From the NCBI RefSeq assembly GCF_002944315.1, contig NZ_CP024314.1, positions 1,116,001 to 1,180,000 on the forward strand: 64,000 nt of DNA, read 5' to 3'. The stretch is from Rhizobium sp. NXC24. Its GTDB lineage: Bacteria > Pseudomonadota > Alphaproteobacteria > Rhizobiales > Rhizobiaceae. Shown one piece after another: positions 51,648-64,000 of the stretch (within the stretch, counting starts at the first letter, position 1; every line of letters starts with the position of its first letter). The notes below the pieces were generated by a model. The model was not told the DNA's origin, ran no database searches, and saw only the letters and a program-made list of their open reading frames with translations. Both the position numbers and the translations under genes were made by a program.

Positions 51648-52550
51648 CTAATGCTTCATCATCAAGGGAAGCGTGGAATGCGATAGAAGGTGGCGCGTAA
51701 TGCGGCCGAGAAGCAGCTCCATAAAATATCCGCGCTTGAACGCACCGATCAGCAGGCATGTCGCGCTCGTGGATCTGGCAAACTCGAGGATAGTTTCTCC
51801 GACCGGCCGGCCTCCGGCGCTGACCGCGACGACGTCGCCCCTAAGGCCGAGCTGATCAAGCAATTCGCTGGCCGTGCGCTGATAGTTTCCGTCCGCTCTA
51901 TCGTCGATGCATAGAACGGTGATGCGATTGGCCACAGCCAGCCAGCGTCTTGCCGCAACGACGGTGCGCAGCGCATGTTTGTGCGGTTTCCAGCCGATCA
52001 GGACATGGCCCAGCAGATTGCCGGAGTAAGCCCCCGCAGGCGGCACCAGCACCAGCTTATGCTTCTTGAACAGAAGATCATAGAATGTGTCTTGCGCATC
52101 CATGTTGCCGTGACAGGGAGCGACGACAAGCGCCGTCTCATGGCATTCGGTCATCACGCAGCGCTCGATATCGCCCCGGCAATCATCCAGGAAAAGGCTC
52201 GCACGATCCGGCCGCTCCCGCTTCCAATCCTCAAAGGCATCGGCAATCCGCTCGAATCTTTGGTGCGGAGAGTTCTCGTCCATGTCCCGCAGGATCTGCA
52301 GGTCAATTTCCTCAGGCGCGGCAATCATCCTTTCGGGATCGGCCCCGATATGCGCTGCAGCCATGCTGCCATGTATGGCACCCGCGGCATCCTCGGCGAG
52401 ATCCAGGCAGTTTCGGACGATGGCGGGATCGGGCAGCAAAGCGAGAACATCGGCATGGACAGTCAATTCACGCAGGGTGCCGGCCAACAGGAGACTTGTC
52501 TTTCCGAGTGGCGGTTTGGTGTCGCTTTCATGTGCGGGCGGGCCCATCAT
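51648..52550 (-). CDS. Universal stress protein, two-domain form
   Basis: A 300-residue protein with a C-terminal UspA domain (VLIGWKPHKHALRTVVAARRWL; LLIGAFKRGYFMELLLGRITRHLLSHSTLPLMMKH) that has the G-2x-G-9x-G-S/T type nucleotide loop in modified form. The N-terminal half is a diverged second Usp domain. AAGGAGG lies upstream of the paired ATGs at 52550. Such proteins help survival under stress or low oxygen. No FNR-type box is clearly visible upstream. Confidence 0.82.
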   Translation of the reverse strand: MMGPPAHESDTKPPLGKTSLLLAGTLRELTVHADVLALLPDPAIVRNCLDLAEDAAGAIHGSMAAAHIGADPERMIAAPEEIDLQILRDMDENSPHQRFERIADAFEDWKRERPDRASLFLDDCRGDIERCVMTECHETALVVAPCHGNMDAQDTFYDLLFKKHKLVLVPPAGAYSGNLLGHVLIGWKPHKHALRTVVAARRWLAVANRITVLCIDDRADGNYQRTASELLDQLGLRGDVVAVSAGGRPVGETILEFARSTSATCLLIGAFKRGYFMELLLGRITRHLLSHSTLPLMMKH

Positions 52551-52698
52551 ATCGGACCTCCTTCCGCGATGCTCCGTACCTCTCGTGGCACGGTTGGCGG
52601 ATTCTACTCTGAGATCGAACGGCCCGCAACGCGGCAGGCATTCTCCCTTGATCCGAAGCTCAAGCCCGCGATCGCCAATGTAAACAAGCTTAACCGCA

Positions 52699-53121
52699 CT
52701 AATGGCGCGGATGCATGCACTGCCCGTGGTCGGCCAGAACTTCGATCACCCGGCACTGGTCGATACGGCCGTGGCCGCAACCTTCGACCATCGTCTCCAG
52801 CTCGGCTTTCAGGGCCGTCAGGCTGCGTATCTTTTGTTCGACTTCGATCAGGCGGGCCTTGGCGATGGCGTCGGCGGAGGCGCAGGATTGATTTGGATCG
52901 TCCTGGAGCGCCAGAAGCGTCCTGATCGCATCGACCTCGAAGCCCAATTCGCGGGCGTGGCGAATAAAGGCCAGCCTGTGAAGGTGCGATTGCTCGTAGG
53001 AACGCTGGTTGCCCTCGCTCCGGTCCGGTTCAGCCAGAAGTCCGATGCTTTCGTAGTAGCGGATCGTCGGCACCTTCACGCCGCTTTGCCGGGCCGCTTC
53101 GCCAATCGTGATCTTTTTCAT
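52699..53121 (-). CDS. MerR-family heavy-metal regulator (ZntR/CadR-like)
   Basis: A 140-residue MerR regulator with TIGEAARQSGVKVPTIRYYESIGLL as DNA-binding part, a dimerisation helix, and metal-site cysteines: one in NQSCASADAIAKA and a C-terminal loop with Cys in EGCGHGRIDQCRVIEVL and GQCMH. This pattern fits Zn/Cd/Pb sensors. AGAGGAAAA precedes the ATG. It is divergent from the P-type ATPase gene, with a typical MerR operator between them, and should activate that gene when metal is bound. Confidence 0.92.
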   Translation of the reverse strand: MKKITIGEAARQSGVKVPTIRYYESIGLLAEPDRSEGNQRSYEQSHLHRLAFIRHARELGFEVDAIRTLLALQDDPNQSCASADAIAKARLIEVEQKIRSLTALKAELETMVEGCGHGRIDQCRVIEVLADHGQCMHPRH

Positions 53122-53136
53122 GATTTTCCTCTTGCA

Positions 53137-53153
53137 CCTCTAGCCACTAGAGG
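53137..53153 (+). promoter_or_regulatory. MerR-type operator within the P-type ATPase promoter
   Basis: CCTCTAG-CCA-CTAGAGG is a perfect 7-base inverted repeat. It begins at the end of a TTGCAC -35 element (53132-53137); TAGGAG at 53157-53162 could be the -10 element with a 19-base spacer, the overlong spacing that MerR activators correct. Confidence 0.8.
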
Positions 53154-53192
53154 ATGTAGGAGAGATGCCACGGTTTGACAAGGAAACGGATC

Positions 53193-55481
53193 ATGGCAGC
53201 GACAGGGGAAGCACGGTATAGGGTGAGCGGCATGGACTGCGCCTCATGCGCGGCCAAGATCGACACGGCTGTGAGACGCATGCCGGGCGTAGAGGATGTC
53301 TCCGTTTCCGTCACTGCGGGAACGATGACCGTTCGTCACGACGAGACCAGCAATCTCACCGCGATCGAAAAGAAAGTGACGGGCCTCGGCTATTCCCTCG
53401 CGCCGCTGGCTGGCAAGGCTGAGCGCGCGCTCTCCGAACATCGACATGACCATCATGACCATGATCATGATCATCATCACAATCACGATAGCCATGATCA
53501 TTCATCGCACGACCACGCCGATCATGATCATCACGACCACGCCGTAAAGGAAATCGAGGGGCTGCATGGTCACGACCATACGCCCACGGATGGCCCCTGG
53601 TGGGCGAGCAGGAAGGGCCGGCTGACGATCGTATCCGGCGCGGCACTGGTCGCCGCCTATGCCATCGGCCATCTCGTGCCCTCGATTTCATCCTATGCCT
53701 TCGTTGTCGCCATGCTGGTCGGTCTCGTGCCGATCGCGCGCCGCGCCGTGATGGCGGCGCTGGCGGGCACGCCCTTCTCCATCGAGATGCTGATGACGAT
53801 TGCGGCCATCGGCGCGGTGATCATCAATGCCGGTGAAGAGGCGGCGACCGTGGTCTTCCTCTTCCTCGTCGGCGAATTGCTGGAAGGTGTCGCCGCCGGA
53901 AAGGCGCGCGCAAGCATCCAATCATTGACGACCCTGGTCCCGAAAACCGCCTTGATCGAAGACAACGGCGAGACCCGCGAAGTGCAGGCCGAAAGCCTTA
54001 AGGTGGGTGCGGTCATTCTCGTGCGTCCGGGCGACCGCATCGCAGCCGACGGCACGATCGTCGAAGGCGAAAGCGCCATCGACGAAGCGCCGGTCACCGG
54101 AGAAAGCACGCCGGTACGCAAGGGCGTGGAGGCCAAGGTTTTCGCTGGCACCATCAACACGGATGCCGTGCTGCGTGTCAGAGTGACCGCGGCCGCGGCC
54201 GACAACACGATTGCCCGCGTGGTGAAGCTGGTCGAAGAGGCGCAGGAATCCAAGGCACCGACCGAACGCTTCATCGACCGCTTCTCGCGCTATTACACGC
54301 CCGGCGTGGTCGCCGTCGCGGCACTGGTCGCGGTGACGCCCCCGCTGGTGGCCGGCGCAAGCTGGCTAGAATGGATATACAAAGGCCTCGCTATCCTGCT
54401 GATCGGCTGCCCCTGCGCGCTGGTGATCTCGACGCCCGCCGCGATCGCGGCCGCCTTGTCGGCAGGCGCCCGCAGCGGCCTGCTGTTGAAAGGCGGCGCT
54501 GTTCTCGAAACAATGGGCAAGGTGACAAAGGTTGCCTTCGATAAGACGGGCACCCTGACCGAGGGCAAGCCCAAGGTGACGGACGTCCTGGGCTTCGGTC
54601 TCACCGAGGCACAGGTTCTCTCACGGGCGGCAGCTCTCGAAAACGGTTCGAGCCATCCGCTTGCTCTCGCAATTCTGGAGCGGGCGAAATCCGATGGTGC
54701 TCCGGTCCCGCCTGCGGCCGAAGCCAAGGCCTTGCCCGGCAAAGGCGTCAGCGGCCGTGTCGGAGGCGAGACCCTGTCGCTTCTCTCTCCGCAGGCGGCT
54801 CGGGAGAGTGAGCCATTGTCGGCCGAACAGGACGCCCGGATCGAAACCATGAACGACGAAGGCAAAAGCGTCTCCGTTCTCTTGGTCGACGGCAAGATCG
54901 CCGGCCTGATTGCCATGCGCGACGAACCCCGCGCCGATGCGCGCGCCGGAATCGAGGCGCTGCGGACAGCCGGCGTCGGTTCCGTCATGCTGACCGGCGA
55001 CAATGCCCGCACGGCCGGTGCAATCGCGAAGGGTCTCGGGATCGAACCTCGCGCGCAGCTCCTGCCGGAAGACAAGCAGCGCATCGTGCGCGAACTGCAG
55101 GCGCAAAAACAGATCGTCGCCAAGGTCGGCGACGGCATCAACGATGCACCCGCCTTGGCGGCCGCCGACGTCGGCATCGCCATGGGCGGCGGCACCGATG
55201 TGGCGCTGGAAACGGCGGATGCCGCCGCTCTCCACGGCCGCGTCACCGATGTCGCCAACATGGTCGCGCTGTCGCGGACGACGATGAGCAACATCCGCCA
55301 GAACATCAGCATGGCGCTTGGCCTGAAAGCGGTGTTCCTGGTGACCACGATTGCCGGCATCACCGGTCTCTGGCCGGCGATCCTCGCCGATACCGGCGCG
55401 ACGGTACTTGTCACTGCCAATGCGATGAGACTGTTGCGGTGGAAGGGCGTGTTCAGCGGTCGTTTGATGAGCGCGCGCTGA
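53193..55481 (+). CDS. zntA: Zn/Cd/Pb-exporting P1B-type ATPase with His-rich domain
   Basis: A 762-residue heavy-metal P-type ATPase. Residues 1-75 form an HMA domain with GMDCASC; residues 83-129 are a long His/Asp-rich stretch (more than 25 His); then come the membrane helices with the IGCPCALVIST (CPC) site, DKTGTLTEGKPK phosphorylation site, HP motif SSHPLA, and GDGINDAPAL. The last helices contain DTGATVLVTANAMRLL, the Asp of Zn/Cd/Pb pumps. It pumps metal out of the cytoplasm. The ATG at 53193 has AAGGAAA upstream. Control is by the divergent MerR protein. Confidence 0.94.
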   Translation: MAATGEARYRVSGMDCASCAAKIDTAVRRMPGVEDVSVSVTAGTMTVRHDETSNLTAIEKKVTGLGYSLAPLAGKAERALSEHRHDHHDHDHDHHHNHDSHDHSSHDHADHDHHDHAVKEIEGLHGHDHTPTDGPWWASRKGRLTIVSGAALVAAYAIGHLVPSISSYAFVVAMLVGLVPIARRAVMAALAGTPFSIEMLMTIAAIGAVIINAGEEAATVVFLFLVGELLEGVAAGKARASIQSLTTLVPKTALIEDNGETREVQAESLKVGAVILVRPGDRIAADGTIVEGESAIDEAPVTGESTPVRKGVEAKVFAGTINTDAVLRVRVTAAAADNTIARVVKLVEEAQESKAPTERFIDRFSRYYTPGVVAVAALVAVTPPLVAGASWLEWIYKGLAILLIGCPCALVISTPAAIAAALSAGARSGLLLKGGAVLETMGKVTKVAFDKTGTLTEGKPKVTDVLGFGLTEAQVLSRAAALENGSSHPLALAILERAKSDGAPVPPAAEAKALPGKGVSGRVGGETLSLLSPQAARESEPLSAEQDARIETMNDEGKSVSVLLVDGKIAGLIAMRDEPRADARAGIEALRTAGVGSVMLTGDNARTAGAIAKGLGIEPRAQLLPEDKQRIVRELQAQKQIVAKVGDGINDAPALAAADVGIAMGGGTDVALETADAAALHGRVTDVANMVALSRTTMSNIRQNISMALGLKAVFLVTTIAGITGLWPAILADTGATVLVTANAMRLLRWKGVFSGRLMSAR

Positions 55482-55503
55482 TCCCAAATTTGCCCTGCAA
55501 TGC

Positions 55504-55552
55504 GGCCCGGTATGCGGATTTCAAGGAATCCACAGCCGGGCCTTTGTTTTTT
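55504..55552 (+). terminator. Rho-independent terminator after P-type ATPase gene
   Basis: GGCCCGG (55504-55510) and CCGGGCC (55536-55542) enclose an inner GGATT/AATCC stem and are followed by TTTGTTTTTT. It lies 22 bases after the stop. Confidence 0.9.
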
Positions 55553-55630
55553 AACCAGTTCGGTAGTGGCCTTGCCGTTACCGCGTGTCGGGCTTGATCC
55601 CCTAGAGGGTGAGACCGCAATCCCCATGTG

Positions 55631-55662
55631 AAAAATAGATTGATATATAAAAAATAGATTGA
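55631..55662 (+). promoter_or_regulatory. Two direct repeats before GntR-PLP-importer operon
   Basis: AAAAATAGATTGA occurs at 55631-55643 and again at 55650-55662, 19 bases apart, in an AT-rich stretch ending 11 bases before the GntR start. The copies are identical. Two sites on nearly the same helix face suggest an operator for the GntR protein. Confidence 0.55.
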
Positions 55663-55673
55663 CCTGATAGCAG

Positions 55674-56402
55674 ATGTCAGACCAATTTAAGGTCATGACG
55701 AAAGCAATGCTAACCCCTCTCCCGTCAATCGACCGGACGCAGCAAGTTATCGACGCGCTGTCCGACTTTATCGAGTCTTCGAAGCTCCAGGCCGGTGACC
55801 GGTTGCCGACGGAGCGCGAGCTGATGGCGGCCCTTTCGGTTGGGCGCTCGACGATCCGGGAAGTCGTCACGCATTTTCAAGCCCTGGGTGTCGTGGAAAC
55901 CCGCAAGGGCAGCGGCACGTATCTGCTGAAACCCGTTTCCAAAGCAACCATCCATATGCCCTTGTCGCTCGATACCGCGCATCTGCGCGATGCGCTGCTG
56001 CAGACCCTGGAGGTTCGCCGCGGTATCGAATGCGAGGCCGGAATGGTCGCCGCCAAGAGACGCACGACCAAGGATATTGCGATCATCGAGGAGAAGCTCG
56101 ATGAAATGGAGCGCGTCCATATCGCAAAGGGCACGTCCGGGCCGGAGGATCTGGCGTTTCACCTCGCCGTCTACGACGCCACGCACAATCCGCTGTTCAA
56201 GCAGCTCCTCGAACAGATGCGTGGCAGCTTCGAGCGGTTTTGGACCCACCCCTTCGACCGGCAGGATTTTGCCCGCCGGTCCTTCCCCTTTCACCGCACG
56301 CTGTTCAACGCGATCGTTGCCCAGGATCCCGAGGCGGCGCGCGCCGAAACATTGAAAATTCTCGACGTCGTCGAGGAAGACATCAAGGAAATGTCCAAAT
56401 GA
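55674..56402 (+). CDS. GntR-family (FadR-type) regulator of the PLP-enzyme/sugar-importer operon
   Basis: A 242-residue GntR/FCD regulator: winged helix LQAGDRLPTERELMAALSVGRSTIREVVTHFQALGVVETRKGSGTYL and a C-terminal FCD domain (EDLAFHLAVYDATHNPLFKQLLEQM; FHRTLFNAIVAQDPEAARAETLKIL). In-frame ATGs at 55695 and 55707 are alternatives because no strong ribosome-binding site marks 55674. Its stop overlaps the PLP-enzyme start by four bases, so it belongs to the same operon and probably controls it from the direct repeats upstream. Confidence 0.9.
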   Translation: MSDQFKVMTKAMLTPLPSIDRTQQVIDALSDFIESSKLQAGDRLPTERELMAALSVGRSTIREVVTHFQALGVVETRKGSGTYLLKPVSKATIHMPLSLDTAHLRDALLQTLEVRRGIECEAGMVAAKRRTTKDIAIIEEKLDEMERVHIAKGTSGPEDLAFHLAVYDATHNPLFKQLLEQMRGSFERFWTHPFDRQDFARRSFPFHRTLFNAIVAQDPEAARAETLKILDVVEEDIKEMSK

Positions 56403-57565
56403 CTGACGGGCTAGAGCCGTTCGATCTCGCTTCCCTCATCACGGCCCATGACGACGGCAACTATGCCGATGCCGTGGTGCCGCCGATTTTTCAGACATCG
56501 CTTTTCACCTTTGCCAATTACGACGACATGATCGCTTCCTATCGCGGCGAGAAGGTGCGGCCGATCTATACGCGCGGCCTCAATCCGACCGTGCGCATGT
56601 TCGAGGAAATGCTGGCAAAACTCGAAGGTGCAGAGGATGCGCTCGGCTTCGCGAGCGGCATGGCGGCGATCTCTTCGGCCGTTTTGAGCTTCGTCGAACC
56701 CGGCGATCGGATCGTCGCGGTCAAGCATGTCTATCCGGACGCTTTCCGCCTCTTCGGCACGGTGCTGAAACGCATGAAGGTCGAGGTGACCTATGTGGAT
56801 GGCCGCGACGAGGAAGCCGTTGCCAAGGCACTTCCCGGCGCGAAGGTTCTCTATCTGGAAAGCCCGACGAGCTGGGTGATGGAAGCCCATGATGTCGGCG
56901 CGCTCGCCGCACTCGCCAAGAAGCATGGCGCCGTTTCCATGATCGACAACAGTTGGGCCAGCCCCTATTTCCAGCGGCCGCTGACGCTCGGCGTCGATCT
57001 CGTCATCCATTCCGCCTCCAAATATCTGGGCGGTCATAGCGATGTCGTTGCCGGCGTTGTTGCCGGCTCGAAGGCGATGATTGCGCGGCTGAAAGCCGAG
57101 GCATATCCTTATCTCGGCGGCAAGCTTTCGCCTTTCGATGCCTGGCTTTTGATCCGCGGCCTGCGCACCCTGCCGATCCGCATGAGGGCGCATGAGGCAG
57201 CCGCAATGACGATCGCCAAGCGGCTGCAGGAGCTCGATGTCGTCGAGCAGGTCTGCCATCCGGGCCTTGCCAACCGCTTGCCCGCCGGGCTCAACGGCAC
57301 CTCGGGCCTGTTTTCATTCATCTTCCGCGAAGACGTCGATATCCGCGCCTTCGCCGATCACCTCAAGCTCTTCAAACTGGGTGTGAGCTGGGGTGGGCAC
57401 GAAAGCCTGATCGTACCGGGCGAGGTCGTGCTTCAGCAGAAGGCACAGCCGAATTCCGCGCATACCTTTGGTATCAACCCGCGGTCCGTACGTCTCCATG
57501 TCGGTCTCGAAGGAACCGAGGCGCTGTGGAGAGATATCGAGGAAGCGATCGCCGCCGCCTCATAA
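56399..57565 (+). CDS. Cys/Met-metabolism PLP-dependent enzyme (cystathionine lyase/methionine lyase family)
   Basis: A 388-residue fold-type I PLP enzyme. Family motifs are PIYTRGLNPTVRMFEEMLAKLEGAEDALGFASGMAA, ESPTSWVMEAHDV, DNSWASPYFQRPL, and the Schiff-base Lys in HSASKYLGGHSD, with GGHESLIVP near the C-terminus. Possible reactions are beta- or gamma-elimination on sulfur amino acids (MetC, CGL, MGL) or a gamma-replacement. It is translationally coupled to the GntR gene and followed, 42 bases later, by a sugar-type importer. That setting suggests catabolism of an imported amino-acid conjugate instead of methionine synthesis. Confidence 0.9.
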   Translation: MTDGLEPFDLASLITAHDDGNYADAVVPPIFQTSLFTFANYDDMIASYRGEKVRPIYTRGLNPTVRMFEEMLAKLEGAEDALGFASGMAAISSAVLSFVEPGDRIVAVKHVYPDAFRLFGTVLKRMKVEVTYVDGRDEEAVAKALPGAKVLYLESPTSWVMEAHDVGALAALAKKHGAVSMIDNSWASPYFQRPLTLGVDLVIHSASKYLGGHSDVVAGVVAGSKAMIARLKAEAYPYLGGKLSPFDAWLLIRGLRTLPIRMRAHEAAAMTIAKRLQELDVVEQVCHPGLANRLPAGLNGTSGLFSFIFREDVDIRAFADHLKLFKLGVSWGGHESLIVPGEVVLQQKAQPNSAHTFGINPRSVRLHVGLEGTEALWRDIEEAIAAAS

Positions 57566-57607
57566 GACCATCAACCCGAGAGAAACACCTAAACAGGGGG
57601 AACTGAC

Positions 57608-58867
57608 ATGAAAACACTGATCACGGCAGCACTCTTCGCCACCATGATGGCGGGTACGGCGTTTGCCGATACCACGCTGAAGCTCGTCGAAGTCATTACC
57701 AGCCCGGAACGCACCGAGACACTAAAGTCGATCGTCGCCAAGTTCGAAGCAGCCAATCCGGGCACGAAGGTCGATATCATTTCCCTGCCCTGGAACGAGG
57801 CCTTCCAGAAGTTCGCTACCATGGTTTCGGCGGGTGACACGCCGGACGTGATGGAAATGCCCGATACCTGGCTGTCGCTCTATGGCAATAACGGCATGCT
57901 CGAAAGCCTCGAACCCTATCTCGCGAAATGGGATCAGACCAAAGAGCTGACGCCGCGGGCGCTCGAACTCGGCCGCGATGTGAAGAATACGGCCTATATG
58001 CTGCCCTACGGCTTCTATCTGCGCGCCATGTTCTACAACAAGAAGATCCTGAAGGACGCCGGCATCGCCGAACCGCCGAAGACGATGGACGATTTCGTCA
58101 AGGCATCCGAAGCAATCTCCAAACTGCCCGGCAAATACGGCTACTGCATGCGCGGCGGCCCCGGCGGTCTAAACGGCTGGATGATCTTCGCGGCCTCCAT
58201 GGCCGGCGACAACAAGTACTTCAAGGATGACGGCACCTCGACGATGAACAGCCCCGGCTGGGCCAAGGGCATTGAATGGATGGTCGATCTCTACAAGAAG
58301 GGTTATGCGCCAAAGGACAGCGTCAACTGGGGCTTCAATGAAGTCGTCGCCGGTTTCTATTCCGGTACCTGCGCTTTCCTCGATCAGGATCCGGATGCCT
58401 TGATTGCGATCGCCGAACGCATGAACAAGGACGACTTCGGCGTCACTCCGCTGCCGAAGGGTCCGGACGGCAAGTCCTTCCCGACGATCGGTTATGCCGG
58501 CTGGTCGATGTTCGCGACGAGCCAGAACAAGGATCTGTCCTGGAAGCTGATCGCAACCCTTGAAGGCAAGGAAGGCAATCTTGAATGGAACAAGAAGATC
58601 GGCGCCTTGCCGGCCTATACCTCGGCTGAGAAGGACCCCTTCTATGCCGGCGACCAGTTCAAGGGTTGGTTCGAGGAACTGGCCGACAAGAACACGGTTC
58701 CGACTGTCATGCCGACCTATCTCGAGGAATTCGCCTTCTTCAAGGATTCGCTCGCCATCAAGACGTCGCAGCAGGCGCTGCTCGGCGATATCTCGGCCAA
58801 GGATCTGGCTGATCAATGGGCCGATTATCTGACCAAGGCGCAGCAGAAATTCCTTGCCAAGAAATAA
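57608..58867 (+). CDS. Sugar-type ABC importer binding protein (family 1)
   Basis: A 419-residue CUT1 binding protein with a Sec signal peptide (MKTLITAALFATMMAGTAFAD). It shows the family-1 pattern: KFEAANPGTKVDIISLPWNEAFQKFATMVSAGDTPDVMEMPDTW, LPYGFYLRAMFYNKKILKDAG, and GYAGWSMFATSQNKDLSWKLI. GGGGGA lies six bases before the ATG. Members bind sugars, polyols or glycerophosphodiesters. The ligand here is unknown, but the operon includes a Cys/Met-type PLP enzyme. Confidence 0.92.
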   Translation: MKTLITAALFATMMAGTAFADTTLKLVEVITSPERTETLKSIVAKFEAANPGTKVDIISLPWNEAFQKFATMVSAGDTPDVMEMPDTWLSLYGNNGMLESLEPYLAKWDQTKELTPRALELGRDVKNTAYMLPYGFYLRAMFYNKKILKDAGIAEPPKTMDDFVKASEAISKLPGKYGYCMRGGPGGLNGWMIFAASMAGDNKYFKDDGTSTMNSPGWAKGIEWMVDLYKKGYAPKDSVNWGFNEVVAGFYSGTCAFLDQDPDALIAIAERMNKDDFGVTPLPKGPDGKSFPTIGYAGWSMFATSQNKDLSWKLIATLEGKEGNLEWNKKIGALPAYTSAEKDPFYAGDQFKGWFEELADKNTVPTVMPTYLEEFAFFKDSLAIKTSQQALLGDISAKDLADQWADYLTKAQQKFLAKK

Positions 58868-58878
58868 GATCGCCTGAC

Positions 58879-58902
58879 CGGCGGCCGAGCGATCCGCCGC
58901 CG
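58879..58902 (+). terminator. Hairpin between binding-protein and permease genes
   Basis: CGGCGGC (58879-58885) and GCCGCCG (58896-58902) form a 7-base stem with a 10-base loop, 11 bases after the binding-protein stop. There is only a short T-run (CTTT). It probably stabilises the upstream message and allows excess binding protein. Confidence 0.45.
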
Positions 58903-58912
58903 CTTTCCGCAC

Positions 58913-59893
58913 ATGACACAGACGGCGTCCGAACGCCGCGAATGGGAACATTGGCCGATGACCATGACCGCCGACACGCTCGACAGGCGTCACGACCGCA
59001 GGCCGTGGCTGAAGCGCTTTGCCGATGCCTCGGAGCCCTATCTCTACAGCGCTCCCGCGCTCATCCTCATTATCGCCGTCATGCTGGTGCCGCTGGTGAT
59101 CGGCATTTCCTATGCGTTTCGGGATATTCAACTGCTCAATCCGTTTTCCGGCGGCTTTGTCGGCCTGGAGCATTTCCGCGATCTTTCAAAGGATGCCGCC
59201 TTCTATTGGGCACTGAAGAATACGCTCTGGTGGACTGGCGCCTCGGTGGTTTTGCAGTTCATCTTCGGGCTGATCCTTGCCCTCTTGCTGGACAAGCCGT
59301 TTTTCGGCAGGGCGATCGTCCAGGCGCTGGTTTTTCTGCCATGGGCGGTCCCCTCCTTCCTTGCCGGCCTCAACTGGTCATGGCTCTTCAATCCCGTGAT
59401 CGGGCCTATCCCGCACTGGCTCTTCGGCCTCGGCCTGATGAAGGAGCCCGGCAACATTCTCTCCGATCCGCAATATGCGATGTGGGGCCCGATCGTCGCC
59501 AATGTCTGGTGGGGCATTCCCTTCTTCGCCATCACGCTGCTGGCCGCTCTCCAGGCGATCCCCAGGGATCTTTATGAAGCAGCTTCGATCGACGGTGCAG
59601 GCTGGTTCCAGCGCTTCCGCTCGATCACGCTCCCATTCCTGGCTCCGACTATTGCTATCACGGTGCTCCTGCGCACGGTCTGGATCTCAAACTTCGCCGA
59701 TTTGATCGTCGTCATGACCGGCGGCGGACCTGCCGACCGCACCCAGATCGTCGCAAGCTATATCTTCACCCAGGCCTTCAAGCGGCTGGATTTCGGTTAT
59801 GCCTCCGCCATTGCCCTCGTCCTGCTCCTGCTGCTGCTTGCCTATTCCATGCTGATCATCCTGCTGCGGCAGACCCTGCTGAACAAGGATTGA
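58913..59893 (+). CDS. Sugar-type ABC importer permease (MalF/UgpA-like)
   Basis: A 326-residue CUT1 permease with six membrane helices and the coupling loop EAASIDGAGWFQRFRSITLPFLAP. A charged N-terminal stretch of about 40 residues precedes the first helix (YLYSAPALILIIAVMLVPLVIG); in-frame ATGs at residues 16 and 18 could be the true start. It is third in the operon and is followed after 3 bases by the second permease. Confidence 0.92.
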   Translation: MTQTASERREWEHWPMTMTADTLDRRHDRRPWLKRFADASEPYLYSAPALILIIAVMLVPLVIGISYAFRDIQLLNPFSGGFVGLEHFRDLSKDAAFYWALKNTLWWTGASVVLQFIFGLILALLLDKPFFGRAIVQALVFLPWAVPSFLAGLNWSWLFNPVIGPIPHWLFGLGLMKEPGNILSDPQYAMWGPIVANVWWGIPFFAITLLAALQAIPRDLYEAASIDGAGWFQRFRSITLPFLAPTIAITVLLRTVWISNFADLIVVMTGGGPADRTQIVASYIFTQAFKRLDFGYASAIALVLLLLLLAYSMLIILLRQTLLNKD

Positions 59894-59896
59894 GCC

Positions 59897-60727
59897 ATGA
59901 GACGATCCGTCATCCCCACCATCGCGCATCGCCTGGCAATCCTTTGTTATGTGGTTTTTGCGCTCTTCCCACTCTTCTGGCTGTTGAAGGTCTCGGTCAC
60001 ACCAAACGACCTGCTCTATACGGAAGGCGTGCGCATGTGGCCGTCGCGCACGACATGGGAGCACTATGCTTTCGTGCTGCAACACAGCGATTTCCCGACA
60101 TTTTTTGAAAACAGCCTGATCGTCTCTGCTTCGACGGCGGTCGCGGTGACCGTCTGCGCGTCGCTCTCCGGCTACGCGCTCTCGCGCTTCACCTTCCGCG
60201 CCAAATACTGGATCGTGGCCTTGATGCTGCTGACGCAGATGTTTCCGCTGGTCATGCTGGTCGCGCCGATCTTCAAGATCCTGACGCCGCTGCATCTCAC
60301 GAACAGCCTGACCGGACTTGTCATCGTCTACACGGCTTTCAACGTGCCCTTTGCCACCTTTCTGATGCAGTCCTTCTTCGACGGCATCCCGAAGGACCTT
60401 GAGGAGGCGGCGATGATCGATGGCGCGACGCAGTTCACCGCGTTCCGGCAGATCATTCTGCCGCTGACGCTGCCCGGCATTGCCGCGACGCTCGGCTTCG
60501 TCTTCACGGCCGCCTGGAGCGAGCTGCTGTTCGCGCTGATGCTCATCAACGGCAATCAGGCAGCCACCTTCCCCGTAGGCCTTCTCACCTTCGTTTCGAA
60601 ATTCTCCGTGGATTTCGGGCAGATGATGGCGGCGGGCGTGATGGCGCTTATTCCGGCCGGCCTCTTCTTCCTGCTCATTCAGCGTTATCTCGTGCAGGGC
60701 CTGACGGCCGGCGCGGTCAAGGGTTAG
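59897..60727 (+). CDS. Sugar-type ABC importer permease (MalG/UgpE-like)
   Basis: A 276-residue CUT1 permease, partner of the preceding one. Six helices; coupling loop EEAAMIDGATQFTAFRQIILPLTLPGI. The N-terminus (ILCYVVFALFPLFWLLKVSVTP) and C-terminus (PAGLFFLLIQRYLVQGLTAGAVKG) are typical for MalG-type subunits. The ATPase gene starts 4 bases downstream. Confidence 0.93.
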   Translation: MRRSVIPTIAHRLAILCYVVFALFPLFWLLKVSVTPNDLLYTEGVRMWPSRTTWEHYAFVLQHSDFPTFFENSLIVSASTAVAVTVCASLSGYALSRFTFRAKYWIVALMLLTQMFPLVMLVAPIFKILTPLHLTNSLTGLVIVYTAFNVPFATFLMQSFFDGIPKDLEEAAMIDGATQFTAFRQIILPLTLPGIAATLGFVFTAAWSELLFALMLINGNQAATFPVGLLTFVSKFSVDFGQMMAAGVMALIPAGLFFLLIQRYLVQGLTAGAVKG

Positions 60728-60731
60728 TCAA

Positions 60732-61790
60732 ATGGCATCGATCGATATCCAGAACGTCAAGAAAGCCTATGGCCATGTGCAGGTGCTGCACGACATCGAC
60801 CTCAGGATCAAGGATGGCGAATTCGTCGTCCTCGTCGGCCCCTCCGGCTGCGGCAAGTCGACATTGCTCAGGATGATCGCCGGCCTCGAAGACATTAGCG
60901 GCGGCGAGATCCGCATTGCGGACAACCGGGTCAACGAGCTGCATCCGAAAGACCGCGACATCGCCATGGTGTTCCAATCCTATGCGCTCTATCCCCACAT
61001 GAATGTCGCCGGCAACATGAGCTACAGCCTGAAGCTCCGGAAGATCGCGAAAGACAAGATTTCGCGTGCCGTCGCGGGTGCGGCCTCGAAGCTCGGGCTT
61101 GACCCATTGCTCGAACGCCGCCCAAAGGCGCTTTCGGGCGGCCAGCGCCAACGCGTCGCCATGGGTCGCGCCATCGTGCGCCAGCCGAAGGCCTTCCTCT
61201 TCGACGAGCCGCTTTCGAACCTCGACGCGCGCCTGCGCGAACAGATGCGGGCCGAAATCAAGAAACTACATGGCGACCTGAAGGCGACCTCAATTTATGT
61301 GACGCATGATCAGATCGAGGCGATGACGCTGGCGGACCGGATTGTTGCCATGCATGGCGGCGTGGTTCAGCAGGTCGGCAGTCCGCTCGAGCTATACGAC
61401 CGTCCCGCCAATCTCTTCGTTGCCGGCTTCATCGGTTCTCCGGGGATGAATTTCCTCGACGCGACCTATGAAACCGGCGGTGTTAGGCTCAAGGACGGAA
61501 CGGTTGTTCCACTTTCGGCAGCGCCGAACCTGCCGGACGGCGCCAAAGTGACGCTCGGCATCCGGCCGGAGCACGTGATTTTGTCCTCGGACGACTCCGG
61601 CATCAGCGCCGATGTGGAGCTTATCGAGCCGACCGGTTTCGGCATCATTCTCCACCTTTCGCTTCATGGTCTGCCATTCAAGGTCTTCACGCTCAATCGC
61701 GATGTGCTGAAGGCGGGGCCGACGGTAAATGTGATATTCCCGCCGCAGCATCTGCATGTCTTCGATAGCGACGGAAAACGCGCGGGATAA
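60732..61790 (+). CDS. Sugar-type ABC importer ATPase (UgpC/MalK-like)
   Basis: A 352-residue CUT1 ATPase: Walker A GPSGCGKST, Q-loop MVFQSYALYPHM, signature LSGGQRQRVAMGRAI, Walker B FLFDEPLSNLD and H-loop YVTHDQIEAMTLAD, then a C-terminal TOBE/OB regulatory domain (LGIRPEHVIL). It completes the importer in this operon. The C-terminal domain suggests it could be shared with other CUT1 importers, as UgpC-type ATPases often are. Confidence 0.94.
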   Translation: MASIDIQNVKKAYGHVQVLHDIDLRIKDGEFVVLVGPSGCGKSTLLRMIAGLEDISGGEIRIADNRVNELHPKDRDIAMVFQSYALYPHMNVAGNMSYSLKLRKIAKDKISRAVAGAASKLGLDPLLERRPKALSGGQRQRVAMGRAIVRQPKAFLFDEPLSNLDARLREQMRAEIKKLHGDLKATSIYVTHDQIEAMTLADRIVAMHGGVVQQVGSPLELYDRPANLFVAGFIGSPGMNFLDATYETGGVRLKDGTVVPLSAAPNLPDGAKVTLGIRPEHVILSSDDSGISADVELIEPTGFGIILHLSLHGLPFKVFTLNRDVLKAGPTVNVIFPPQHLHVFDSDGKRAG

Positions 61791-61855
61791 CAATGGCAGC
61801 AAATTGCCGCATTGAGCTTGCGCGCCGAACATCCTAAAGGTTGCGCGCTAGAGGG

Positions 61856-62272
61856 ATGAGGACGGCCGTGGGGAAGAAGCACTTCTGCACAACACAGTGG
61901 ATGGTGCGCATCATGTGCGCCCTCGCGCTGGTGCTTGTCGGCTTCGCCCATCAGCCGCCGATTTCCGATGCCGATGAGCTCACCCCTGCGAAGCTGGTGC
62001 AATACCGGTTGCCGGACGGGACCCTGCCGATCCTTTGCGTCACCTACAAGGGCACCGACGGTAAGGAACACAGCAAGACACATGCGCCGGGATGCGAAGC
62101 ATGCCGGATCGCCACGGCAGTCCTGCTTCCCGCGCCGCCGACGGATGTCTGCGAACGTCTTGCCTCTTCCGATCAGGATGTGCTCGCGCCAAGAGCCGAA
62201 GCTTTCCATCGCCAGCTCTATCCGCCGAATACCGGCCCCCGCGCTCCGCCCATCCTCCAGATCACTGCTTGA
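61856..62272 (+). CDS. DUF2946-like protein near copC
   Basis: A protein of about 138 residues with one hydrophobic segment near the N-terminus (WMVRIMCALALVLVGFAH), which could be a signal or anchor, then a short domain with LCVTYKGTDGKEHSKTHAPGCEACRIA. The CxxC and His suggest metal binding, and DUF2946-type proteins accompany copper genes. The start may be the ATG at 61856 or the GTG at 61868, which has AGGA at better spacing. The next gene is copC. Confidence 0.65.
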   Translation: MRTAVGKKHFCTTQWMVRIMCALALVLVGFAHQPPISDADELTPAKLVQYRLPDGTLPILCVTYKGTDGKEHSKTHAPGCEACRIATAVLLPAPPTDVCERLASSDQDVLAPRAEAFHRQLYPPNTGPRAPPILQITA

Positions 62273-62566
62273 GCCTGCGTTGCGGCACAAGCCGTGACGC
62301 TTGTCGTCAACGGCGGCCGGACCATGCACGAGAACTGATCGTGCCGGCTGCGGGCAGATTGCCTCCATGCTGAACATCGCGACGCGAAACGGGCTGCCTC
62401 GGCATCCCAAACGCGCGTGCACATCCGCATAAGGCTGCGACCGGAATGGCCGCTCCTCCCCGCAGCGTATCGCTCTACCACGATATGATATCTGCCGCGA
62501 CCGGCACCGGTCTCGGAAAACCACTCCACAGAAACTGTCGATTACCAACAAAGAAGGAAGACCAAC

Positions 62567-62935
62567 ATGCCCATGATGAAGAAGCTTGCTTTTATCACCG
62601 TCGCAGCCAGCATTGCATTTGCCGGCCAGGCATTCGCCCATGCCCACCTTAAGTCCGCCGTTCCCGCCGCTGACAGCACGGTGAAGCAGGCACCTTCGGA
62701 ACTCGATCTTACTTTCACCGAAGGACTAAACCTCAAGTTCAGCGGGGTGAAGGTTACCGGTCCGGAGAAGATGGCGGTGAAGACTGGTGAAACCATGCTG
62801 ATGAACGGGGACACCACACTGATGGTGCCGGTTACTGACAAGCTGACGGCTGGCAAGTACACTGTGGAGTGGCATGCCCTTTCAGCCGACGGCCATAAGA
62901 CCGAAGGGACCTATACCTTCACCATCGCGCCATAA
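62567..62935 (+). CDS. copC: CopC periplasmic copper-binding protein
   Basis: A 122-residue CopC protein. A signal peptide (KKLAFITVAASIAFAGQAFA) is followed by HAHLKSAVPAADSTVKQAP, so the mature protein starts with the His of the Cu(II) site; EWHALSADGHKTEGTYTFTI provides the other His and Asp. The length is usual for stand-alone CopC. GAAGGAAGA lies before the ATG. No copD gene follows; it carries copper in the periplasm, but its partner is not in the window. Confidence 0.93.
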   Translation: MPMMKKLAFITVAASIAFAGQAFAHAHLKSAVPAADSTVKQAPSELDLTFTEGLNLKFSGVKVTGPEKMAVKTGETMLMNGDTTLMVPVTDKLTAGKYTVEWHALSADGHKTEGTYTFTIAP

Positions 62936-63006
62936 GCCTACCGATACGGCGGCAACTTATCTGGGGCGCGCAATCCTTTCTGCTGGCCAAAAAGGTTCTG
63001 GATCGC

Positions 63007-64000
63007 TCACCGAGCAATTGAACTCTGGTCGGCAGGAGCGGCGCGGCCATAGACCGTAAACCGCTCATCCCTAGCAATGGGATGATATGCGGAAAGCAGC
63101 GCGGCAAAACGTGCTTGACCAAGCACGTAATCGGTCCAAAGCGGCTCGTCCTGCTGGATGACGATCAGATCGTAGCTGTGGCTGGCGAACTCGGCATATT
63201 TGGTGTCCAGATAAGCATCCGATCGCTTCTGGTAGCGAGCGGCATCCGCCACCTCTCCTTTTGCTGACGCCTTCCGAGCCAGAACATACGCAAGGGCGCC
63301 GAACCAGTCGCTGTTATTGGCAGACAAAAAGCGGGCCCCGACAATCCTGGCGAGCGGATGGGCAGCGGCGATGTCGCTGCCGATGACGCCGAGCGTCGGC
63401 TCTCCCTTCGATGCCGCTTTCACTGCCGCGACGAAAGCGTCGCTCGGCTTCTCCGTCTGTAAAAACGGCAGCCATGCAAACATGACGACAATGACACAAA
63501 GAATGCCACGTCCGAGCGTTTCACGGTTGTAACGCCAGCCGGAAGACGCTGCGACCCTACAAAGCACAGCAACAAGGGCCAGCGAGATCGCAGCGAAAGC
63601 ATGGTAGGCCCACCCCTTACCCTGATAGAGCAACGGCGCGACGGCAGCGAGTGAAGCCAGAAGCGTCACTGCGCAAAGCGGCGTCACTGGTGCCTTGGGT
63701 GCAACAATCCGGAACAGAAGCAAAATCAACAGGTACGACGGCCCACAGCTCAGTGCGACCCTGACCGGATCACCTATCTTCATGTAGACATCCGCTACCT
63801 GCGGGAGGAGATCTCGCATAAATTCGGGCGTCAGCAAAAAAACGAGCGCGATATAGGCGACACCGACAATGCCGATGATGCAGTTCTCGGGCGCCAGAAG
63901 TAGCCACGGGTTTCGCCGCCGCCAGGCCACATAGAGCGCGGGCACGATGTAAGCCACGACATAGTAGGCCTTCACCAGAACAAGAATACTGCCGCAAAGC
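63007..64000 (-). CDS. Large membrane protein, N-terminal part outside window
   Basis: The C-terminal 330 residues of a polytopic membrane protein; the frame stays open to the right edge, so the start is outside. Six or more hydrophobic helices (YYVVAYIVPALYVAW, NCIIGIVGVAYIALVFLL, SYLLILLLFRIV, ISLALVAVLCRV, ILCVIVVMFAWLPFL) are followed by a soluble periplasmic tail (residues after TEKPSDAFV) ending VYGRAAPADQSSIAR. The layout resembles membrane glycosyltransferase-like (GT-C) or polysaccharide-assembly proteins, but no catalytic motif is in the visible part. Confidence 0.7.
   Translation of the reverse strand, partial: LCGSILVLVKAYYVVAYIVPALYVAWRRRNPWLLLAPENCIIGIVGVAYIALVFLLTPEFMRDLLPQVADVYMKIGDPVRVALSCGPSYLLILLLFRIVAPKAPVTPLCAVTLLASLAAVAPLLYQGKGWAYHAFAAISLALVAVLCRVAASSGWRYNRETLGRGILCVIVVMFAWLPFLQTEKPSDAFVAAVKAASKGEPTLGVIGSDIAAAHPLARIVGARFLSANNSDWFGALAYVLARKASAKGEVADAARYQKRSDAYLDTKYAEFASHSYDLIVIQQDEPLWTDYVLGQARFAALLSAYHPIARDERFTVYGRAAPADQSSIAR

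Follow-up and report, generated by a model that had tools for sequence, protein, structure and literature searches.

Why should a pyridoxal 5'-phosphate (PLP)-dependent enzyme of the cysteine/methionine metabolism family be encoded in one operon with a complete importer of the CUT1 class? This question is raised by a locus in a 64,000-nucleotide stretch of Rhizobium sp. NXC24 (contig NZ_CP024314.1, positions 1,116,001 to 1,180,000; hereafter the window), part of a 7.3 Mb genome. An earlier reading from the sequence alone had placed a GntR-family regulator, the PLP enzyme, and the importer head to tail, and this arrangement was confirmed: six genes lie on the same strand at positions 55674-61790 of the window (Table 1). 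An amino acid-sugar conjugate appears to be the best-supported substrate class. The explanation preferred here, tentatively, is that the operon is self-contained and, with a single enzyme, would take up and convert an alpha-amino acid that bears a sugar or polyol and has its alpha-amine free, cleaving it by beta-elimination. A plant or algal amino acid that carries a sugar is the probable substrate. No published description of such an operon was found in the literature library searched.

The association of these genes is real and old, and it goes far beyond chance. The enzyme was searched in 297 genomes of the family and 385 genomes of the class, and every listed match except that of the window itself was fetched with its flanks, which gave 90 loci. 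A second set contains 80 named loci from GTDB genomes, the best 80 of at least 586 stretches ranked against the far-clade enzyme of locus L132, and is therefore biased toward it; there is overlap between the two sets, from which duplicates were not removed. The complete order GntR, PLP enzyme, solute-binding protein (SBP), permease, permease, and ATPase was found in 78 of the 90 loci and 66 of the 80. It persists down to 47% enzyme identity across alpha- and gammaproteobacteria, with carriers including roseobacters, Thalassospira, Mesorhizobium, Erwinia rhapontici, Rahnella, and Pantoea dispersa. The sequence-only reading had staked itself in part on the enzyme standing beside CUT1 importers in other genomes, and the neighborhood survey, which found this in most loci, leaves it standing.

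The 12 exceptions in the first set are 10 paralogues from siderophore clusters, one locus whose permeases are displaced by an insertion (L094), and one from a Rhizobiaceae genome (L092) that keeps the GntR and PLP genes and has lost the transporter from this place. In the second set 14 loci deviate. Contig ends cut L138, L152, and L191; in L142, L189, and L190 the ATPase alone is missing from its place, and in L154 only the regulator; L147, L148, L151, L156, L157, L179, and L184 lack the importer despite at least 4 kb of following sequence (7 kb for L156).

Enzyme and SBP also occur together when whole genomes are counted, with a threshold of E 1e-90 for the SBP. Among the 297 family genomes, 78 encode the enzyme, 76 the SBP, and 75 both. 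The three genomes with the enzyme and without the SBP contain the siderophore paralogue only (G189 and G266) or this paralogue and a transporter-less copy (G289), while the single genome with the SBP and without the enzyme (G056) has it at a contig end. Both proteins were found in the identical 6 of 385 genomes of the class sample. The PLP protein of the window is 100% identical to one encoded on a megaplasmid of Rhizobium sp. CB3060 from Leucaena. The orthologous operon of R. johnstonii 3841 (L292) is located on pRL11 (NC_008384.1, 391476-397592, RL_RS31585-31610), with RL_RS31590 as its PLP gene, and genes for a metallophosphoesterase and peptidase T lie 3' of it on the same strand.

The regulation of the operon appears to be equally self-contained. 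Of 152 loci, 104 have a palindromic motif of the form TTGTC(A/T)GACAA (GATGTCAGACCAATT in rhizobia) 5' of the GntR gene, whereas 100 mononucleotide shuffles gave 0.68 as the mean and 3 as the maximum; the pattern had been framed after viewing the same sequences, and the loci include near relatives. As an independent test, the exact 15-mer was searched in 41 whole genomes together with a backward control. It occurs once per genome in 26 of the 41 genomes, namely in all 25 of the same genus (that of the window included) and in 1 of the 16 others. All 26 sites adjoin the GntR and PLP genes of the operon, and the backward control had zero occurrences in the same 41-genome search. Because the exact 15-mer is found at a single site per genome, and always here, the regulon looks confined to this operon, so the products of the enzyme should fit into general metabolism.

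The PLP enzyme belongs to the NCBIfam group PRK05968 (NF004627, named "hypothetical protein"), with 720.4 bits against a cut-off of 508. The second best of all models is that of Ala/Glu racemase (NF041088), at 365.8 bits against the curated 629. The scores also stay below the cut-offs for methionine gamma-lyase proper (TIGR01328, 292.4 against 549.7 bits) and cystathionine beta-lyase proper (TIGR01324, 254.7 against 365.9 bits). Among solved structures, the best match by sequence is TM1270 (PDB 9iz5, 251 bits), a multifunctional L-Ala/L-Glu racemase, presumably of Thermotoga maritima as its locus name indicates; a methionine gamma-lyase follows 2.4 bits behind at 248.6. The ranking by predicted structure places methionine gamma-lyases first.

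Active-site residues were compared among 39 operon-type enzymes, 8 enzymes of the siderophore-cluster (VbsL) type described below, TM1270, MetC, MetB, two methionine gamma-lyases, and L007, a cystathionine beta-lyase-like paralogue from the genome of the window itself (G000). K207, Y111, and R364 are invariant in 39/39 operon enzymes. D113 and R116 are invariant in the operon enzymes and VbsL, and so are S157, W185, A186, W330, and P339, which TM1270 has as well. Escherichia coli MetC shares S157, W185, A186, and W330, and the MetC-like set of Ser157, Trp185, and Trp330 was found in all 39 operon enzymes. MetB and the two methionine gamma-lyases differ at these positions: 157 is Asn, 185 is Phe or Tyr, 330 is Leu, and 339 is His. 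The methionine gamma-lyase/cystathionine gamma-synthase type, with Asn-Pro after ESP and Asn at 157, does not fit the 39 of 39 operon enzymes that have Ser there.

These residues look like those of a beta-lyase/racemase chemistry, and the active site could, as far as its residues indicate, accommodate beta-elimination and racemization alike. PMC5845896 describes such a case, L. sakei MalY, which is both racemase and beta-lyase and uses one Lys and one Tyr for both reactions. The cystathionine/methionine lyase of the sequence-only reading is thus not borne out: no curated model of that kind is reached, and in its active site the enzyme is a beta-lyase/racemase type that stands near the epimerase VbsL. 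Homoserine- or homocysteine-linked substrates become less likely on the same grounds.

The ten siderophore-cluster paralogues, about 50% identical to the operon enzymes, all stand with non-ribosomal peptide synthetase (NRPS), Lys/Orn monooxygenase-type, and GNAT-type proteins, and in 7 and 6 of the 10 loci, respectively, with a MATE exporter and a sigma factor (protein clusters, one member each named by Pfam). The NRPS family was found in these 10 loci of the 90 and in no operon locus. In the literature, the vicibactin cluster is given as vbsLDAGSO with rpoI (PMC6421345) and VbsL is named acyl-hydroxyornithine epimerase (PMC12971057). Because the gene content matches the vicibactin cluster as there described, the paralogues are taken to be VbsL (L115-L124, to which L214 and L217 are added as VbsL-type loci). 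VbsL, the N5-acyl-N5-hydroxyornithine epimerase that serves vicibactin synthesis, resembles the operon enzyme in subfamily (PRK05968; 635.8 bits for L115, cut-off 508), identity, and active-site residues, but it is encoded in a biosynthetic NRPS siderophore cluster with no CUT1 importer or GntR gene in place. Inspection by eye of the open frames at 52000-64000 of the window showed no vicibactin-type NRPS.

Phylogenetic analysis placed VbsL inside the operon enzyme family, next to Mesorhizobium-type enzymes (support 98/93 and 100/97), and this placement recurs in further trees; the approximately unbiased test retained an alternative to the nesting (p 0.096). The nesting is a possible indication of the origin of VbsL. 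Fixed differences between the two groups are confined to S204, F324, and Q346, where VbsL has A, I, and I, and position 333 is mostly His or Phe in the operon enzymes and Pro in VbsL. With the pocket positions 324, 333, and 346 changed, the side-chain pocket of VbsL looks re-cut.

The sugar side of the conjugate is indicated by the importer and by genes added in relatives. The SBP has the fold type of di- and oligosaccharide binders and retains W62 and W88, the counterparts of residues mutated in a glycoside-binding protein; the likeness is qualified by D263, an invariant Asp where the GPW motif of a homologue has Trp. A second importer copy without the PLP enzyme is present at L295:2891-10725 (SBP 53%, permeases 66-67%, and ATPase 61% identical), and it converges with genes for a class-V (kynureninase-like) PLP enzyme, RidA, two glyoxalase-family proteins, and an FCD-GntR regulator.

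In the far clade, an AGE-family isomerase gene lies near the enzyme gene. It is on the same strand in 5 of the 90 and 7 of the 80 loci, and two further loci of the second set have it on the other strand. Three of the 12 same-strand copies are partial or broken (a C-terminal remnant in L147, residues 8-107 only in L153, and two frames in L132). The nearest solved relatives of this isomerase are YihS-type entries, one of them named sulfoquinovose isomerase (215-219 bits). An AceE-like E1 protein is encoded directly 3' of the ATPase in 2 of the 90 and 5 of the 80 loci; on a Tritonibacter plasmid this E1-like gene is annotated as transketolase and accompanied by AGE. The E1-like family is a common one, present in 98 of 289 genomes. 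Of its 30 best loci, viewed with 1.5 kb of flank only, 10 have an Lrp-type gene as neighbor and 4 a methionine gamma-lyase gene, and because of these neighbors the family context suggests a role in 2-oxo-acid rather than sugar metabolism. Methionine gamma-lyase and E1 genes also lie just past the operon in a Roseibium and a Labrenzia locus (L143 and L145); the lyase of L143 scores 754.6 bits (cut-off 666), and the L145 copy is 91% identical to it.

Loci without the CUT1 importer have other partners. In Defluviimonas (L147:6356-10558 and L148:6433-11456), genes for a GCS2-family (glutamate-cysteine-ligase-like) protein, an amidase, and the PLP enzyme stand in a row, followed by a whole AGE isomerase gene (L148) or its remnant (L147). 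Roseibium sediminis (L151:19-10188) has an M20 peptidase, a Dpp-type importer, an aldehyde dehydrogenase, a short-chain dehydrogenase/reductase, GntR, and the PLP enzyme in a row. In marine Pseudomonadales (L179 and L184), an NhaC-type antiporter gene, split over two frames in L184, lies close behind the PLP gene in place of the importer, and an SNF-type symporter gene is nearby. Partners of both sugar-related and amino-acid-related kind thus occur near the enzyme. The amino acid-sugar conjugate of the sequence-only reading gains independent support from the YihS-like isomerase, the E1-like enzyme, the amidase, and the peptidase in some relatives, while a reading of the enzyme as a gamma-lyase of sulfur amino acids is not supported.

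The following course of events is proposed. Acting at the conserved site at 55673-55687, the FCD-GntR protein probably serves as repressor of its own operon, and the CUT1 importer, whose class is established, would take the conjugate in. The PLP enzyme, as is usual in its family, would form an aldimine with the alpha-amine and remove the alpha-proton. The sugar-bearing group would then most likely be lost by beta-elimination, as from O- or S-glycosyl serine, cysteine, or threonine. The expected products, a free sugar, ammonia, and pyruvate or 2-oxobutyrate, could be used by core metabolism without further operon-specific enzymes. In some roseobacters the YihS-like isomerase and the E1-like enzyme, which may act on 2-oxo acids, would deal with the two halves, and this addition is a reason to think of a sugar-amino acid conjugate.

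A possible but less probable explanation is that the enzyme is a racemase or epimerase, and that the importer supplies it with a sugar-like amino acid or a conjugate of D configuration, whose alpha-carbon is inverted for general enzymes. The identity and active site shared with the presumed VbsL speak for it, and so does TM1270 as the best solved match, though with the methionine gamma-lyase so near in score; the racemase profile leads that of methionine gamma-lyase more clearly. P339 is common to the operon enzymes, VbsL, and TM1270 and is His in the two methionine gamma-lyases and MetB, but it is not exclusive, since the beta-lyase-like L007 has Pro as well. One active site can perform both reactions, as in L. 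sakei MalY, and the substrate of VbsL would lack a beta leaving group, so it would say nothing of the reaction of the ancestor. Phylogeny taken alone would favor epimerization, which weighs against the beta-elimination preferred here. Epimerization alone, however, leaves the catabolic path unfinished, yet the operon has one enzyme and one exact operator site. Beta-elimination is preferred because a one-enzyme, one-site regulon must end in core metabolites, and also because the genes added in some roseobacters resemble handlers of sugars and 2-oxo acids.

A 2-amino-2-deoxy-aldonate such as D-glucosaminate, which the PLP enzyme would dehydrate to 2-keto-3-deoxygluconate for the Entner-Doudoroff route, is an improbable substrate. 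Such a molecule would be both polyol and alpha-amino acid and one step from core metabolism, but this PLP family does not readily eliminate a hydroxyl group, and the AGE isomerase and the E1-like enzyme would be left unexplained.

Very little probability is given to the import of a plain oligosaccharide with a PLP enzyme in a regulatory role, on the model of MalY, the E. coli repressor of the maltose system. MalY belongs to a different fold-type-I family, and MalI is a LacI-type repressor. According to PMC5845896, MalY is a PLP beta-lyase encoded in an operon with the sugar phosphotransferase system (PTS) gene malX, with a repressor gene nearby, and interacts with MalT; the present operon differs in having an ABC importer instead of a PTS. 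The SBP fold would suit an oligosaccharide, but a GntR regulator and a putative operator already belong to the operon, the residues K207, Y111, and R364 are invariant, and the enzyme is also found without the CUT1 importer, beside an amidase or NhaC-type antiporter gene or near a peptide-type importer. An equally slight chance is left for a phosphodiester such as glycerophosphoserine, beta-eliminated to glycerol-3-phosphate, pyruvate, and ammonia: the CUT1 class includes glycerophosphodiester importers, the ATPase scores above the cut-off of the UgpC model, and the products would require no further enzyme; the permeases fall far below the Ugp glycerol-3-phosphate importer models (UgpA 116.6 bits, curated 335; UgpE 97.4 bits, curated 297).

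Other known systems share single traits with the operon. TM1270 has the ESPTS, DNTWASP, and SWG motifs and P339 of the operon enzymes, but W and K at the positions of D113 and R116, and it forms a deep, unresolved branch of the tree. In Pseudomonas, mdeAB encode methionine gamma-lyase MdeA and the E1-like MdeB, a PLP lyase beside an E1-like enzyme, and a comparable Lrp-lyase-E1 arrangement was observed in L143 and L145; MdeA, however, carries out methionine gamma-elimination and has Asn where the operon enzymes have S157, and to our knowledge the system includes no sugar importer. The SmoF-type sulfoquinovose import operon of Agrobacterium has, as far as we know, no PLP enzyme and other downstream enzymes.

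Table 1. Coordinates of the putative operator and the six genes of the operon, counted from the first nucleotide of the window.
Feature	Position	Strand	Basis
Putative operator GATGTCAGACCAATT	55673..55687	+	core of TTGTC(A/T)GACAA-like palindrome
GntR-family regulator, FCD subfamily	55674..56402	+	Pfam GntR 60.4 bits (cut-off 27), FCD 82 bits (cut-off 24.3)
PLP-dependent enzyme, Cys_Met_Meta_PP, PRK05968 subfamily (VbsL kin)	56399..57565	+	PF01053 338 bits; NF004627
CUT1 solute-binding protein (SBP)	57608..58867	+	SBP_bac_1
CUT1 permease 1	58958..59893 (open frame from 58913)	+	Pfam BPD_transp_1 72.5 bits
CUT1 permease 2	59897..60727	+	Pfam BPD_transp_1 74.1 bits
CUT1 ATPase, UgpC/MalK type	60732..61790	+	NF008653 500.6 bits (cut-off 432); OB_MalK, TOBE_2 domains

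By Pfam, the importer has the parts of a CUT1 system (an SBP_bac_1 protein, two BPD_transp_1 permeases, and a MalK-type ATPase with OB/TOBE), and the regulator, with both GntR and FCD domains above cut-off, is of the FadR/FCD type. The GntR and PLP genes overlap by ATGA. The true start of GntR is probably 55695 instead of 55674, because the ATG at 55674 falls within the putative operator, and comparison with the annotated R. leguminosarum orthologue indicates that permease 1 probably starts at 58958 instead of 58913. Directly upstream (52699-55481 of the window) are a MerR-type regulator (-) and a His-rich heavy-metal P-type ATPase (+), and downstream (62567-62935) is a small CopC-like open frame; these names were all assigned by eye, from the translations. 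Flanking gene clusters accompany the operon in at most 10 of the 90 loci.

The wider route is conceivable, though doubtful as a whole: bacteria of plants and algae would import O- or S-glycosylated amino acids through a CUT1 system, a PLP beta-lyase would take the place of a glycosidase, and VbsL would later have been recruited from this enzyme family. The apparent nesting of VbsL, if true, would explain the origin of a siderophore-tailoring epimerase. The strong conservation of a one-enzyme operon, both in genomes of the same genus and in distant carriers, implies a common compound, probably of plants or algae, that seemingly has not been named so far.
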